Below are positions 3,190 to 23,966 of a stretch of DNA of 32,826 nt, piece by piece (positions within the stretch are counted from its first letter, which is position 1; every line of letters begins with the position of its first letter). The stretch covers positions 98,765 to 131,590 of the forward strand of contig JAGDWD010000010.1 of NCBI GenBank assembly GCA_023255955.1. Reading direction: 5' to 3'. The position numbers and the translations under genes are program-made. Origin of the DNA: Desulfurococcales archaeon (GTDB lineage: Archaea; Thermoproteota; Thermoprotei_A; Sulfolobales; NBVN01). A model generated the notes under the pieces. That model was given only the letters and a program-made list of their open reading frames with translations. It did no database searches and had not been told where the DNA came from.

Positions 3190-3213
3190 CCCAGCACTAC
3201 AGCTGAGATGGTG

Positions 3214-4381
3214 ATGACCTCTAAGAAGATCGGTATTACTAGCTATAGTAGTGGTGGTCTTAGTAGCTGTATCTTTCGTGGCAGGAGTCTTTTTAGGTCA
3301 ATCTACAGTAACAGTAGCTCCAGGAGTAGCTGGGACTGTCACAGTAACCCAGACAGTAACACCGGTAGCTACTACCAGTAGGTTCAGGCTGATTACGTTC
3401 TATACTGCTGGAGACCCCGTTACGAAGCTGCTAAGTACTTTGCTGAGTTAGTGAAGAGTATTGTCTGGAGGTAGGATAGTCATAGAGGTCTACTACGCTG
3501 GGGAGTTAGGTATAGCCGTTACGGACATAGTTGACGCAGTATCTCGCGGAACTGTTGAGGTAGGTATGTTCTATACTAGCTACCTAGCATCTCAGGACCC
3601 TGTCTTTGCCTTAGCTGGTGGTAAGCCAGGACCTCTCTCCAATCCGTACGACGTACTCCACTACGCTACCAAGGTCTTTGACCTAGTCAACGCAACCTTC
3701 AGCAAGTTCGGTGTTGTGGCTATAGGTCCTATGGTCTTCGGAGACGTTGAGATACTTGTAAGCAGGGTACCGGTTAGGAGCTTAAAGGACATTGAGGGCA
3801 GGATCTTCAGGTCCTCTGGTCTAGCTGCGGTGTTCTGGTCTAGGATGGGGCTTCAGACAATGATGTTGCCAGCTGAGGAGCTCTACACAGCTCTACAACT
3901 AGGTACTATAGACGGCCTCGAATGGACTGACTACACAGCAAACTACAGGATGGGCTTCCACGAGGTAGCTAAATATGTTGTCAAGCTTACCCCAGGCTAT
4001 AACTTACATAGTGAGGCAACAGTACACGCGTACCTCATAGTTAACCCACAAACCTGGAGGAACCTCCCCGATGATTTGAAGCAGATAATACGAGCTGCCT
4101 GCGCGGCTACATACTACTGGACAGCTTACCATGTACCGGAGCTGAACAGGGAGTATAAGCAGAAATGGATAGATGCTGGAGCTACTATCGTCAGACTACC
4201 TCAGGAGGATCTAGACAAGATCCTCGAAACAGCGATACAGCTACATATAGAGTACGCAGGTAAGAGCCCCGAGGCCAGGAACTACGTCAACAGGTTAGTA
4301 AGAATATGGAGGGAGCTAGGCTACGAGTCGTGGGCTGAGAAGCTAAGTAAAGCCCTCGAGGCAGCTGGTCTGAAGACTTAG
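3214..4381 (+). pseudogene. dctP: TRAP transporter substrate-binding protein DctP, interrupted by three frameshifts
   Basis: This is the extracytoplasmic solute receptor of a TRAP (tripartite) transporter, likely for a carboxylate or 2-oxo acid. The long piece 3461-4381 is intact: SGGRIVIEVYYAGELG, then the family arginine region (GRIFRSSG) and the DGLEWTDY segment. Upstream, the protein is recoverable only by changing frame. MTSKKI from ATG 3214 joins a hydrophobic anchor (VLLAIVVVVLVAV) by skipping one base near 3226-3233. A Thr/Val-rich linker and FRLITFYTAGDP follow. At the CCCC run 3415-3418 the frame slips back one, giving RYEAAKYFAELVK. One extra base near 3461-3462 then returns to the long frame. 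Net length is about 388 aa, normal for an anchored archaeal DctP. The gene is either recently broken or mis-sequenced; the family call is secure. Confidence 0.85.
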
Positions 4382-4383
4382 GG

Positions 4384-4869
4384 GTGGGGTTCGTGGGGCT
4401 ACTCCACAAGTTGAACTCTAAGCTCTTTTTATATGTATCTCTCCTGGTACTACCCCTAGTAGCCTCAGTTGTTTACGGGGTCGTGAGCAGGTATTTCCTT
4501 GGTAGAGCTGACGCTAGAGCTTTCTTCTTTTCGGTATGGCTCTACGGATCCCTATCTATACTAGCTGGGGGTCACTTACTGGCTACTGAGGGCCACGTAT
4601 CTATAGATATAGTCTACAAGAAGCTTAACGATAAAGCTAGGAAGCTCCTTGAAATACTCTCGTTAGTAGTTGTAGTAATAGCCACCGCTATCATAGCCAT
4701 CCCTGGAGTGCAGACAGCCTGGAGGTCTACGATTATTAACGAGGTGGACTCAAGCCTCGGGATAATTTTCGCACCCCCGATATGGTGGTTTAGGTGGGTA
4801 GCTGTAGCTGGAATCATATTAGTCCTCACACAGGCACTGGAGTTACTCTACAAAAAGGTTAAACATTAG
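4384..4869 (+). CDS. dctQ: TRAP transporter small permease DctQ
   Basis: This 161-aa membrane protein has four hydrophobic segments (about 15-35, 48-66, 90-112 and 133-155) and sits between dctP and dctM. That is the order and size of the DctQ small permease, which supports the large permease DctM. It contains the loop SILAGGHLLATEGHVSIDIVY, similar to the conserved DctQ segment between helices 2 and 3. The start is GTG, two bases after the dctP stop. It is the only gene of the three without a frame break. Confidence 0.85.
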   Translation: MGFVGLLHKLNSKLFLYVSLLVLPLVASVVYGVVSRYFLGRADARAFFFSVWLYGSLSILAGGHLLATEGHVSIDIVYKKLNDKARKLLEILSLVVVVIATAIIAIPGVQTAWRSTIINEVDSSLGIIFAPPIWWFRWVAVAGIILVLTQALELLYKKVKH

Positions 4870-4878
4870 GTGGTGGTT

Positions 4879-6180
4879 ATGGCCCAGATAACGCCGTTCA
4901 TAATGTTCGTAGCTCTCTTCATACTACTCCTCCTGAAGGTACCGGTAGCCTTCGCGCTATTCTTGGTGGCAGTAGCTTTCAGCTACGTCTTCTGGGGTTT
5001 CGGAGGACTCTATGTCTGCTTCCAGGGTGTGGTCCTTAATGAATAATTGGGCTCTAGTATCCCTACCACTATTCGTGTTTATGGGTGCTTTGCTAGAGCG
5101 TAGTGGGGTTACTGAGGAGCTGTTCTTAGTGTTTCGTAAGTGGTTGGGGAGCTACAGGGGCTCCCTAGCGATAATCTCGATCTTGCTGGGCTATGTGATA
5201 GGGGCTATGTCAGGGGTCGTAGCTGCTGCCGTAGCTGCTCTAGCTCTCCTAATATACCCTATGATGAGGAAGGAAGGCTATGACGAGGGGTTGGCTGCGG
5301 GCTCTATACTAGCTGCTAGTACATTACCACAGCTAGTACCACCAAGCTTCAACATGATAGTTTACGGAACTGCTACAGGTGTTTCAGTAGGTTCTCTCTT
5401 TGCTGGGGGGCTTGGGCTAGGTACTCTAATGACGGTTCTCTTCATAGCTTATGTAGCCGCGTGGAGCCACATATATAAGGATAGGGTTCCTATCTACAAA
5501 GAGAAAGTACCGTTCAAAGAGAAAGTAGCTTCCCTGAAGTACCTAGTAGGACCTCTAACCATAATACTCTCAGTTTTGGGCTCTATATTCACCGGTATGG
5601 CCACCCCTACGGAGGCCTCCGGAATAGGTGCGGCAGTAACCTTGATCTACGTAGCTATTAGAGGTAGGCCAGGAAGATATTACTCGAGGCAGTTACGACA
5701 ACAGCCCGCATCACATCTATGGCTGTCTGGATAATGGCTGGTGGATCAGCTTTCAGCTCGGTATTCAGTGGTCTGGGAGGTAAAGCAGCTGTAACTAGTT
5801 TCCTAATGTCCCTACCTGCTGCTAAGCTAACGGTCTTAGTGCTCTCTATAGCCTTAATATTCGTGCTGGGAATGTTCGTGGACCCCGTATCCATAATAGT
5901 GATCATGGCTCCAGTACTGACACCAGCTGTCGTAGCCTTAGGATATGACCCGGTCTGGTGGGGAGTGATATTCTGTGCTACTCTGCTCACATCCTACATA
6001 ACACCACCAGTCGGGATGGCTCTCTACTACTTAATGGGGGTGGTTAAGGACGTGAAGACGGAGGTCATATTTAAAGCTGTCTGGGCTTTCGTACTACTTC
6101 AAATAGCTGCTATACTGATATCAGTAGCAGTACCGGACACGATAATGCTCTTTGTTAGATTACTGACCCGCTATAGATAA
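4879..6180 (+). pseudogene. dctM: TRAP transporter large permease DctM, interrupted by two frameshifts
   Basis: DctM is the Na+-coupled transport subunit of TRAP systems. Three overlapping frames together give about 433 aa, the usual DctM length. From ATG 4879 the first frame gives MAQITPFIMFVALF and helix 1, ending at GFGGLY. The second starts near 5012-5015 (SASRVWSLMNNWALVSLPL), reached by skipping one base. It carries the long middle part with GATGVSVG-type and TPTEASGIGAA motifs. Near 5667-5677 the frame slips back one and continues ILLEAVTTTARI to 6180, including PVSIIVIMAPV and SYITPPVGMALYYL. Because the two shifts cancel, total length is a multiple of three. There are no internal stops other than those caused by the shifts, so breakage is recent or an artefact. 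Confidence 0.85.
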
Positions 6181-11625: not shown

Positions 11626-11752
11626 AAAGTTCATTAGGTATGCTCTAGGGGGTGATGGGAGCCCCGCGCCGTTGAGCTCGACAGCCACCTGAAGTAATGG
11701 AAATGACCCTCTAGGGACAAACGGTAGACTCAGTCTGGATATTCTCCCACTA

Positions 11753-20801: not shown

Positions 20802-20912
20802 ATGAGAATTATGTGTCGTGCTATGCGTATTGGAGGATCCGATCCTTTGGATTGGACTACTAGGCGTATTGTTAAGGGTATGTTAATAAGTGATGCCGGC
20901 AATTTGTATTGA
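20802..20912 (+). CDS. Small ORF leading into the restriction-modification gene
   Basis: This ATG-initiated ORF of 36 codons contains the peptide DPLDWTTRRIVKGMLISD and ends inside the start of the large methyltransferase ORF (20890). It is the first start codon after the predicted promoter. It may be a leader peptide, a small control protein, or the true N-terminus of the methyltransferase: adding or removing one base between 20890 and 20910 would fuse the two frames. I cannot choose among these. Confidence 0.35.
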   Translation: MRIMCRAMRIGGSDPLDWTTRRIVKGMLISDAGNLY

Positions 20913-23232
20913 GACGGAGTGTGGGTTAGTTATGCCTGAAGTCTCAGAATACGTTGTTAACGTTAAGCTCGCTGAGATTCTCAGTGAGGAATTCAGCATT
21001 GACTGTAGAGCTGAGAGAGTAGTTAGTCGTAGAAGACCGGACGTGAGGTGTTACTATAGAGGGTTTAGAATAGGTGTGGAGGCTTCATACGATAGAGTTG
21101 ATGCTGAGGAGGATGCTGAGCAGAGAATTGAGAAAGATCTTGCGGACATAGCTATAGCTTTGTGGATTAAGACTCGCTATAGTGATACTCCTGAGCAGGA
21201 ACTCTATGAGAGCATTAAGAGGTCAAGATTTGATGTAAAGATCTTCATTCCAATAGAACCTACTGGATTACTTAAATACATTGAAAGTAGGTCTGGACTA
21301 ACAGCTGAGCCCGCCACTCAATGGCTTACCGATATCGATATTCCCACACTCGGAGCTCTAATAAAGGACAGCATAGAGTTCGTAATTAAGGAAGAGGAGG
21401 TTGAAGCTAGAATTAAGGAGCTACAGAACAAAATAAACGACTTCATCAGAGTACTGTCAAGTCTTGAAAGCGCGCGTTTAGTGCGGGAGAATATATACAA
21501 CATACTCTACAAACTTTACGGCCTCTCGGTTACTGAAGCTAGAGAACCTGAGATAGTCTTCGGCCATGCTGGTCTCTCCATACTTCTATCAGCGATATTC
21601 TATGAACACGTAAGGTTTAAGCACGGGCTCCCACCGCTCTCGGAGTACGTTGGTAGATATGGTGCTATAGAAGGTCTTAGAAGGGCTCTCGAGGATTTAC
21701 TTAAGATAGACTATAGGGCAGCTCTCGAGTTAGCTATAGAGATACTAAACACTTTGCCGGGTGAAATGAGTAGAAGTGTGGAGAGTCTTATAGATCTCGC
21801 ACACGTAATTGCCTCAAATACCGCTCTACTAAGGAAGGACTTCGCTGGTAGGGTGTACCATAAGATAACTGGTGATATAGCTGTTAGGAAGGGGTTCGCA
21901 ACATTCTATACTGAGGTTCCGGCAGCGTATCTACTAGCATACCTAGCTACGTTAAGCTTGCTGGGATTAGATAGGAGGGATATTCCCAGCCTAACTAGGG
22001 AGGAAGTTCTCAACGTTATCGAGAGAATTAAGGAGGTTAAGGTAGGGGATTTCGCTTGCGGTAGTGGGACCCTCCTCACAGCATCTTACAGTGCTTTAAT
22101 GCGTATAGCATCGGAGCTTAACTACTACCACTACCTCGACTTAGATCTCGATGAAGTTGGGAGGGTGATTGTTGAGAACAACATCTACGGTATTGACGCG
22201 CTTAGATATGCTTCTCAGATAACGGCAGTAAACCTAGCACTAATAGCTCCGGGCACTATATCGAAGGAGAATATATTCACGATATGTTTGGGTGTTACAT
22301 CTAGTAGGATCCCACTACTCGGAAGTCTGGAGCTGATTAATGATAGTAGGAAGGTGGGCGGGCTCCTAGCCTTCATCGAGAAAGAATTTCGGGAAACCGT
22401 GAAGAGAACCACAGTTGAGGGTGTGGAGGGTAAGTTCTCGATACCTGAAACCTTCGACTTGATCATCATGAACCCACCATTTACGAGAGCTACTGGTAGA
22501 ACCGAAGGTTTTACTGGGAGTAGAGGACTCTTCGGATTCATAGCAGATGAAAATTCGCGGAAAATTCTTATTGATGCCTACGAGAAAGTTAAGGAGAGAG
22601 TACGTGAAGACTTGAGGAGCATTGCTGAAGATAGTTCCCAAATACTTCCAGCACATATTCAGAGAATACTGAAGGGGGAGGAGGGGTTAAAGCAGTACCT
22701 AGCTATTGGACAGGCAGGTGAGGCCCTCCTCTTTCTCTACTTAGCGTACAGATACGTTAAAGACGGTGGAGTCATAGCTTTCGTTCTACCGAGAACCCTC
22801 CTTGCCGGGGTATCGTGGTTCCTAGCTAGAGTCCTACTAGCAACGAAGTTCCACCTAAAGTACGTAGTAGTTAGTAACGACCCTGAGAGAGGCTACAACT
22901 TCTCGGAGAGTACGTTATTAAGTGAGACACTGATAGTTGCTGAGAGAACAGACACTCATAGTGATGATGAGGAAACAGTATTCGTAAACCTCGTAAGGAA
23001 GCCTTCATCCGCTTTAGAAGCTTCTACCTTCGCTAGTGAGGTCATTAGATCTACCCGTAGAAACACACCGTATGTAGAGCTACTAGGCAGGGTTAGAGCT
23101 ACGATAACAAGGATCCGCAGAAAGGAGCTTCTAGAACACGTAAATAACTGGCACGTATTTGTAGCTACCCCGGATAGCCGTCTTCTGGATGTATATAGAG
23201 AGCTCACTAAGGGGTATGTGGTGGGATTATGA
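20890..23232 (+). CDS. Restriction-modification enzyme, N6-adenine methyltransferase part (Eco57I/type IIG-like)
   Basis: This 780-aa protein has a possible nuclease domain, a helical linker and an adenine methyltransferase. Residues 48-66 read RRPD...GVEAS: P50-D51 then E64-x-S66, like PD-(D/E)xK nucleases but with Ser where the catalytic Lys is expected. Methyltransferase motif X lies at 328-345 (GDIAVRKGFATFYTEVP), motif I (SAM binding) at 386-393 (GDFACGSG) and motif IV (catalytic) at 523-531 (DLIIMNPPF). The target-recognition part continues in the next ORF, overlapped by ATGA. Start at GTG 20890 or ATG 20893; ATG 20932 is also possible. It probably acts as a phage/plasmid defence enzyme, or as a solitary methylase if the nuclease is dead. 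Confidence 0.82.
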   Translation: MMPAICIETECGLVMPEVSEYVVNVKLAEILSEEFSIDCRAERVVSRRRPDVRCYYRGFRIGVEASYDRVDAEEDAEQRIEKDLADIAIALWIKTRYSDTPEQELYESIKRSRFDVKIFIPIEPTGLLKYIESRSGLTAEPATQWLTDIDIPTLGALIKDSIEFVIKEEEVEARIKELQNKINDFIRVLSSLESARLVRENIYNILYKLYGLSVTEAREPEIVFGHAGLSILLSAIFYEHVRFKHGLPPLSEYVGRYGAIEGLRRALEDLLKIDYRAALELAIEILNTLPGEMSRSVESLIDLAHVIASNTALLRKDFAGRVYHKITGDIAVRKGFATFYTEVPAAYLLAYLATLSLLGLDRRDIPSLTREEVLNVIERIKEVKVGDFACGSGTLLTASYSALMRIASELNYYHYLDLDLDEVGRVIVENNIYGIDALRYASQITAVNLALIAPGTISKENIFTICLGVTSSRIPLLGSLELINDSRKVGGLLAFIEKEFRETVKRTTVEGVEGKFSIPETFDLIIMNPPFTRATGRTEGFTGSRGLFGFIADENSRKILIDAYEKVKERVREDLRSIAEDSSQILPAHIQRILKGEEGLKQYLAIGQAGEALLFLYLAYRYVKDGGVIAFVLPRTLLAGVSWFLARVLLATKFHLKYVVVSNDPERGYNFSESTLLSETLIVAERTDTHSDDEETVFVNLVRKPSSALEASTFASEVIRSTRRNTPYVELLGRVRATITRIRRKELLEHVNNWHVFVATPDSRLLDVYRELTKGYVVGL

Positions 23233-23966
23233 AGAGGATTATAGCTGTACCCATCGCAAGGCTTATAGACGTTGTTGAGAGTGTCGGTATAGATTCACCA
23301 CGATTCCACGATCATTTTAGTAGGAGTGTTGGTAGAACTCCTTACCCGGTCGTCTATAGTGGTGAGGAGGCTGTCAGAACCAGGATGCTTGTTAAGCCTA
23401 ACTGCTATGTCGTCCCTAAGGATAGTAAGGGTGTAGATCTATTCAAGAAGTATAGTTCGAGAGTCCTCGTTCCAGATAGGATATGGTGGGATACTGCTCA
23501 CGTTATAGCTATATATGCCTCGGAGCCTGTCATCTCAAACATCTTCTACGCAGTTAGGCTTAAGTGTAATTCTCCAGAAGCTGAGAAGGTCCTCGTCTTA
23601 TGGCTTAACACTACGTGGGGAATTCTCTCTGTTTTAATGAACAGGGCAGAGACGCGGGGACGGTGGACGAGGTTGAAGGTAGCTCATTGGATGCTCTTAC
23701 CGGTATTAGATGTATGCTCCCTCAATAAAGAAACATTGAGACGTTTAGCTGAAGTCTTCGATAGATACGCTAGTAACGATCCCGGAAGAATACCTAGTCA
23801 ATACGACCCAGAAAAACCGAGTCCTGTTAGGCTCGGTATTGACGTGGAGTTCATTAAAGCTTACAACCCATCTATAAACGAGGACTCCATTAAAGAAGAG
23901 CTGAAGAACCTTTACAAGCACATGGATATAGCACTAAAATCGTGGGTAGGATTAGAGGTTCTTTAA
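23229..23966 (+). CDS. Target-recognition part of the restriction-modification enzyme
   Basis: This 245-aa ORF has features of the C-terminal region of Eco57I-like single-chain enzymes: a GIDSPRFHDHF segment followed by TPYPVVY, then LVPDRIWWDTAHVIAIYA and LWLNTTWGILSVLMNRAETR, the pattern that ends the target-recognition domain. Known relatives, as I recall them, carry this fused to the methyltransferase. Here it starts with ATG overlapping the upstream stop (ATGA), so it may be a genuinely split subunit made by coupled translation. One missing base near 23224-23228 would give a single chain of about 1,026 aa. It should supply DNA sequence specificity. Confidence 0.72.
   Translation: MKRIIAVPIARLIDVVESVGIDSPRFHDHFSRSVGRTPYPVVYSGEEAVRTRMLVKPNCYVVPKDSKGVDLFKKYSSRVLVPDRIWWDTAHVIAIYASEPVISNIFYAVRLKCNSPEAEKVLVLWLNTTWGILSVLMNRAETRGRWTRLKVAHWMLLPVLDVCSLNKETLRRLAEVFDRYASNDPGRIPSQYDPEKPSPVRLGIDVEFIKAYNPSINEDSIKEELKNLYKHMDIALKSWVGLEVL

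Follow-up and report, generated by a model that had tools for sequence, protein, structure and literature searches.

Intact operons encoding the three components of a TRAP transporter are found in several relatives of the archaeon studied here, labelled G000. Its own copy lies at positions 3208-6180 of the window, the 32,826-nt stretch of DNA that was analysed (G000:C4:98765-131590). The genes dctP, dctQ and dctM are adjacent and all three products are recognised by Pfam (PF03480, PF04290 and PF06808). The operon encodes a classic three-part transporter of the DctP, DctQ, DctM type, whose substrate, judging from the family, is probably a small organic acid. Neither DctP nor DctM, however, is carried whole in any single frame: there is no full-length open frame for a DctP with its signal peptide or for a complete DctM. 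This raises the question of whether the breaks are lesions in the organism's DNA, sites of recoding or faults of the assembly.

Frame changes in the TRAP operon

Frame changes were placed with a purpose-written frameshift-aware protein-to-DNA aligner. Intact references were taken from six operons for DctP (G002, G001, G016, G019, L058 and L061) and from four of these for DctM (G002, G001, L058 and L061). G002 (Thermoproteota archaeon GXS.bins.2) and G001 (Sulfolobales archaeon SKW299, as recorded) are congeners of G000. L058 (DQUR01000207.1) is binned as Thermococcus paralvinellae, possibly as a stray contig, and L061 (LEKQ01000010.1) is from bacterium GBS-1; their dctPQM genes are intact and very like those of this archaeon, which points either to mis-binning or to a transfer of genes between the archaeal and bacterial domains. 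In the comparison with relatives that the initial annotation had recommended, dctP, dctQ and dctM are unbroken in all six homologous operons; here dctP and dctM are disrupted (Table 1).

Table 1. Genes and frame changes of the TRAP operon (window positions)
Feature	Positions	Strand	Remarks
dctP (TRAP substrate-binding protein), broken	3208..4381	+	PF03480, E 1.7e-31
Claimed first dctP frame change	3226..3233	+	Placed from start-codon position only; not detected by the aligner
dctP frame change, -1	3413..3420	+	Adjoins CCCC run; 6/6 references (G019 places it at 3429)
dctP frame change, +1	3457..3463	+	6/6 references
dctQ, intact, 161 aa	4384..4869	+	PF04290, E 9.5e-17; aligns straight through
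dctM, broken	4879..6180	+	Fragments 4879-5044, 5012-5734, 5719-6180
dctM frame change, ~-2 nt vs relatives	5026..5032	+	4/4 references
dctM frame change, ~-4 nt vs relatives	5663..5676	+	4/4 references; aligned as -1 plus codon gap

The initial annotation had described three frame changes in dctP and two in dctM, all of a single base, and an intact dctQ. Homology supports the dctP changes near 3415-3420 and 3460-3463. The one at 3226-3233 was deduced from the signal-peptide frame, which contains stops at 3212-3217 and lacks a usual start upstream of GTG 3251; ATG 3208 and ATG 3214 are in a different frame. Both dctM changes were recovered, the first about 15 nt downstream of the 5011-5016 originally proposed, but their size relative to the relatives shows that they are not both single-base events. 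They do cancel as had been claimed, since together they keep the frame, and the aligner needed zero frame changes in DctQ. The longest open part of dctP (3461-4381, 306 aa) is without the signal peptide and some 95 N-terminal residues, and PF06808 is matched in the second and third dctM fragments. Inside the operon, a search for repeats gave just short, chance-like ones.

Between the breaks the genes appear well preserved. There are no in-frame stop codons in the 2.4 kb of dctP and dctM frames, and no excess amino-acid divergence was found in either protein, as identities to outgroups match those of the intact congeners: DctM is 52% identical to that of G022, a member of another genus of the same family (50% and 48% for the congeners), and DctP is 44% identical to that of G016 (44% and 43%). 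In the G022 operon dctQ and dctM are open and dctP carries -1 and -2 changes (L007:1260-1510, G022:C2 ~80058-80310), the -1 change lying within about ten codons of that in the window dctP. No motif shared by the DNA around the two breaks is evident.

Genome background and other damaged genes

The excess of frame changes had initially been judged against 9 kb of other genes, too small a control, which we replaced with a census of 698.5 kb of the 1639-kb genome (43%) against a single reference, the G002 proteins, covering 626 genes and 570 kb of alignment. The filtered census was used, as antisense ORFs raised the counts of a crude tblastn census and of an unfiltered frameshift census. Given 13-20 other frame changes in ~568 kb, the 2967 bp of the operon would be expected to hold 0.07-0.10; the probability of at least four is ~1e-6 to 5e-6 per stretch and ~2e-4 to 9e-4 over all stretches. 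The clustering is therefore beyond chance. In the reciprocal search, of G002 with G000 proteins, 11 events were found against 32 in G000 at the same threshold. Apparent changes at three places were set aside. Those at C4 121989 (window ~23225, where ORFs 20890-23232 and 23229-23966 on the plus strand correspond to one 1016-aa G002 ORF) and C1 147705 (hydrogenase-like, 39% identity) are probable gene splits or fusions, and the apparent shifts at C9 8170-8314, where visual inspection suggested a TnpB-like gene, probably stem from the reference ORF and not from G000.

Nine of the 626 genes were judged clearly broken, dctP and dctM included. The other seven, named from their Pfam domains, are an SNF symporter, an isochorismatase-family hydrolase, an ABC permease (BPD_transp_1), an NhaC-type antiporter, two SBP_bac_5 proteins and an AstE/AspA deacylase; in the sampled 43% these are uptake or catabolic genes. 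A repeat element of 294 bp interrupts the SNF symporter gene, and a 238-bp stretch containing a partial copy of this element interrupts the AstE-like gene. In the ABC permease remnant (C3:9924-10645, L036) the N-terminal half and an internal segment are missing and what is left is fused to an ATPase-like fragment, the whole representing an ABC transporter in advanced decay. One of the SBP_bac_5 peptide-binding proteins is 86% identical to its G002 counterpart until residue ~308, where a frame change occurs, and stops at about residue 408 out of 922; the isochorismatase gene has a frame change plus a gap. Base-calling error could not produce the structural lesions in these five genes. Of the five genes with unmistakable lesions four also carry small frame changes, as do two of the 619 others (Fisher p ~1e-8 in a hand-made table). 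Membrane or exported proteins account for eight of the nine broken genes and 31% of coding length (p 6e-4), a contrast based on rough hydropathy and softened by the probable misclassing of AstE. The clustering and this co-occurrence of small changes with large lesions rule out uniform sequencing error, as the initial annotation had argued from density.

The repeat element is ~297 bp long, starts with a hairpin-like GTCCCTAGATG...CATCTAGGGAC and ends in ACAGCCC. About a dozen near-full copies are present in the 698 kb sampled, for example at G000 C1:75344-75642 (L198:15344-15642), C3:87306-87601, C3:93601-93897 and C6:14521-14817, and there is a weak 44-bp match at window 11646-11689. One copy lies downstream of the TnpB-like gene on C9, and the element may be a derivative of a TnpB element. 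G002 has diverged partial matches, the sampled part of G022 has none, and no Rfam family was matched.

Clustering is explained if the operon is no longer under selection and is decaying, and would also be explained by a locally bad stretch of assembly. An assembly or base-calling error in a poorly covered or strain-mixed stretch, leaving the true genes intact, is the main rival, to which we give about one chance in three. The indels come without stop codons or excess divergence, and G000 is a 1.64-Mb draft in 13 contigs (97% complete, 2% contamination) in which homopolymers of at least four lie within 8 nt of five of 15 frame-change sites genome-wide, against 13% expected. The structural lesions are moreover confined to other genes, with zero in the TRAP operon. 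On the other side, just one of the five TRAP sites has such a homopolymer within 30 nt, namely the CCCC run at 3415, the dctM changes are of -2 and ~-4 nt, and both dctQ and the 1.5 kb onward from 3463 are clean of frame changes. Also against a technical origin, the broken genes found in the sampled 43% include no obviously informational one.

Recoding and split translation as unlikely alternatives

Regulated frameshifting, also raised initially, fares poorly. Programmed frameshifting or other recoding giving full-length DctP and DctM would agree with the conservation of protein sequence within each frame and with the broken dctP of G022. None of the five sites, however, has a slippery heptamer (X_XXY_YYZ), and in the four stretches folded the downstream RNA is not unusually stable (z -1.95, 1.68, -1.10 and 0.41, the lowest being at the unconfirmed first site). 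Shifts of both signs would be needed in one gene, and shifts would be required across two genes. Nor is the shift site conserved: the six related operons are open, and G022 breaks in different DNA. We consider this reading highly improbable. A variant in which dctP of this archaeal family is expressed by recoding without known signals is prompted by the fact that in G000 and G022, from different genera, the -1 breaks are separated by no more than about ten codons and each precedes a second change, the gene being conserved otherwise; it appears even less credible.

DctM might alternatively be split but working, its three fragments being separately translated by coupling and then assembling. The second and third ORFs do start with ATG (5012 and 5719) and overlap the preceding ORF. 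The methionine at 5719 is, however, also present in congeners and hence expected, the same rescue is impossible for DctP, and no relative has such a split, so that this too has very little to recommend it.

Probable recent inactivation and known systems

The reading that we favour, with some reserve, is that a dispensable TRAP system has recently and genuinely been inactivated amid a wider loss of uptake genes. The initial suggestion of recent inactivation thus holds as the best account, the frames between the breaks showing neither stops nor loss of similarity, although local assembly error remains its rival. Several small insertions and deletions would have inactivated the operon: DctP would lose its signal peptide and first part and DctM would be cut into three fragments, so that no working transporter is expected. 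Once a first mutation had removed function, more indels could gather in the same operon, dctQ being spared by chance. Loss of the TRAP system would then be one among several uptake and catabolic losses in the lineage, some by insertion of the ~300-bp element and others by deletion. The frame changes, the intact relatives and the other broken genes are observed; that the indels are truly in the organism's DNA, the order in which they arose and the loss of transport are points that we infer.

As in a pseudogene, the frames are disrupted where orthologues are intact. The signs of relaxed selection, stop codons and excess divergence, are absent; a very recent inactivation would not be expected to show them. 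At indel:substitution ratios between 1:2 and 1:20, the probability that 2.4 kb contain no stop falls from 0.69 to 0.02. Their absence implies that the event is either very recent or an artefact, and it is for this reason that our preference for inactivation is no stronger.

The window dctP is the sole PF03480 gene found in G000. Three further DctM-family permeases have long open frames (C4:51757-53211, 721 aa; C7:74332-75762, 699 aa; C1:76771-78078, 650 aa) and, from their length, are probably fused, TAXI-type proteins; these would remain if the DctP-type system were lost. If real, the inactivation would have removed the only DctP-type TRAP system, caught before stop codons appeared, from an archaeon in which other DctM-family permeases persist, and would form part of a wider erosion of nutrient-uptake genes aided by a repeated mini-element. 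This would help metabolic reconstruction of the lineage and would otherwise be ordinary genome evolution. Domain hits alone should not lead to G000 being considered competent for DctP-type TRAP uptake.

Nothing relevant on archaeal TRAP pseudogenes was found in a search of the literature. The window operon has the P-Q-M order of DctP-type TRAP operons (PF03480, PF04290, PF06808) and intact homologues in congeners but, unlike these, its dctP and dctM are not open. The one -1 programmed shift reported in an archaeal cellular gene is that of fucA1 of Saccharolobus solfataricus (PMC8211752). Like the window genes, fucA1 is divided between frames with its protein sequence conserved; its single -1 shift is accompanied by a slippery heptamer and a stem-loop, and the window operon has neither. 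A further comparison is with unitary pseudogenes and the singleton fs-genes; such singletons are expected to reflect either errors of sequencing or pseudogene indels (PMC3711429). Four of the five window breaks are likewise confirmed by homology, at sites not common to relatives, and differ in that several occur within one operon, as yet without stop codons.
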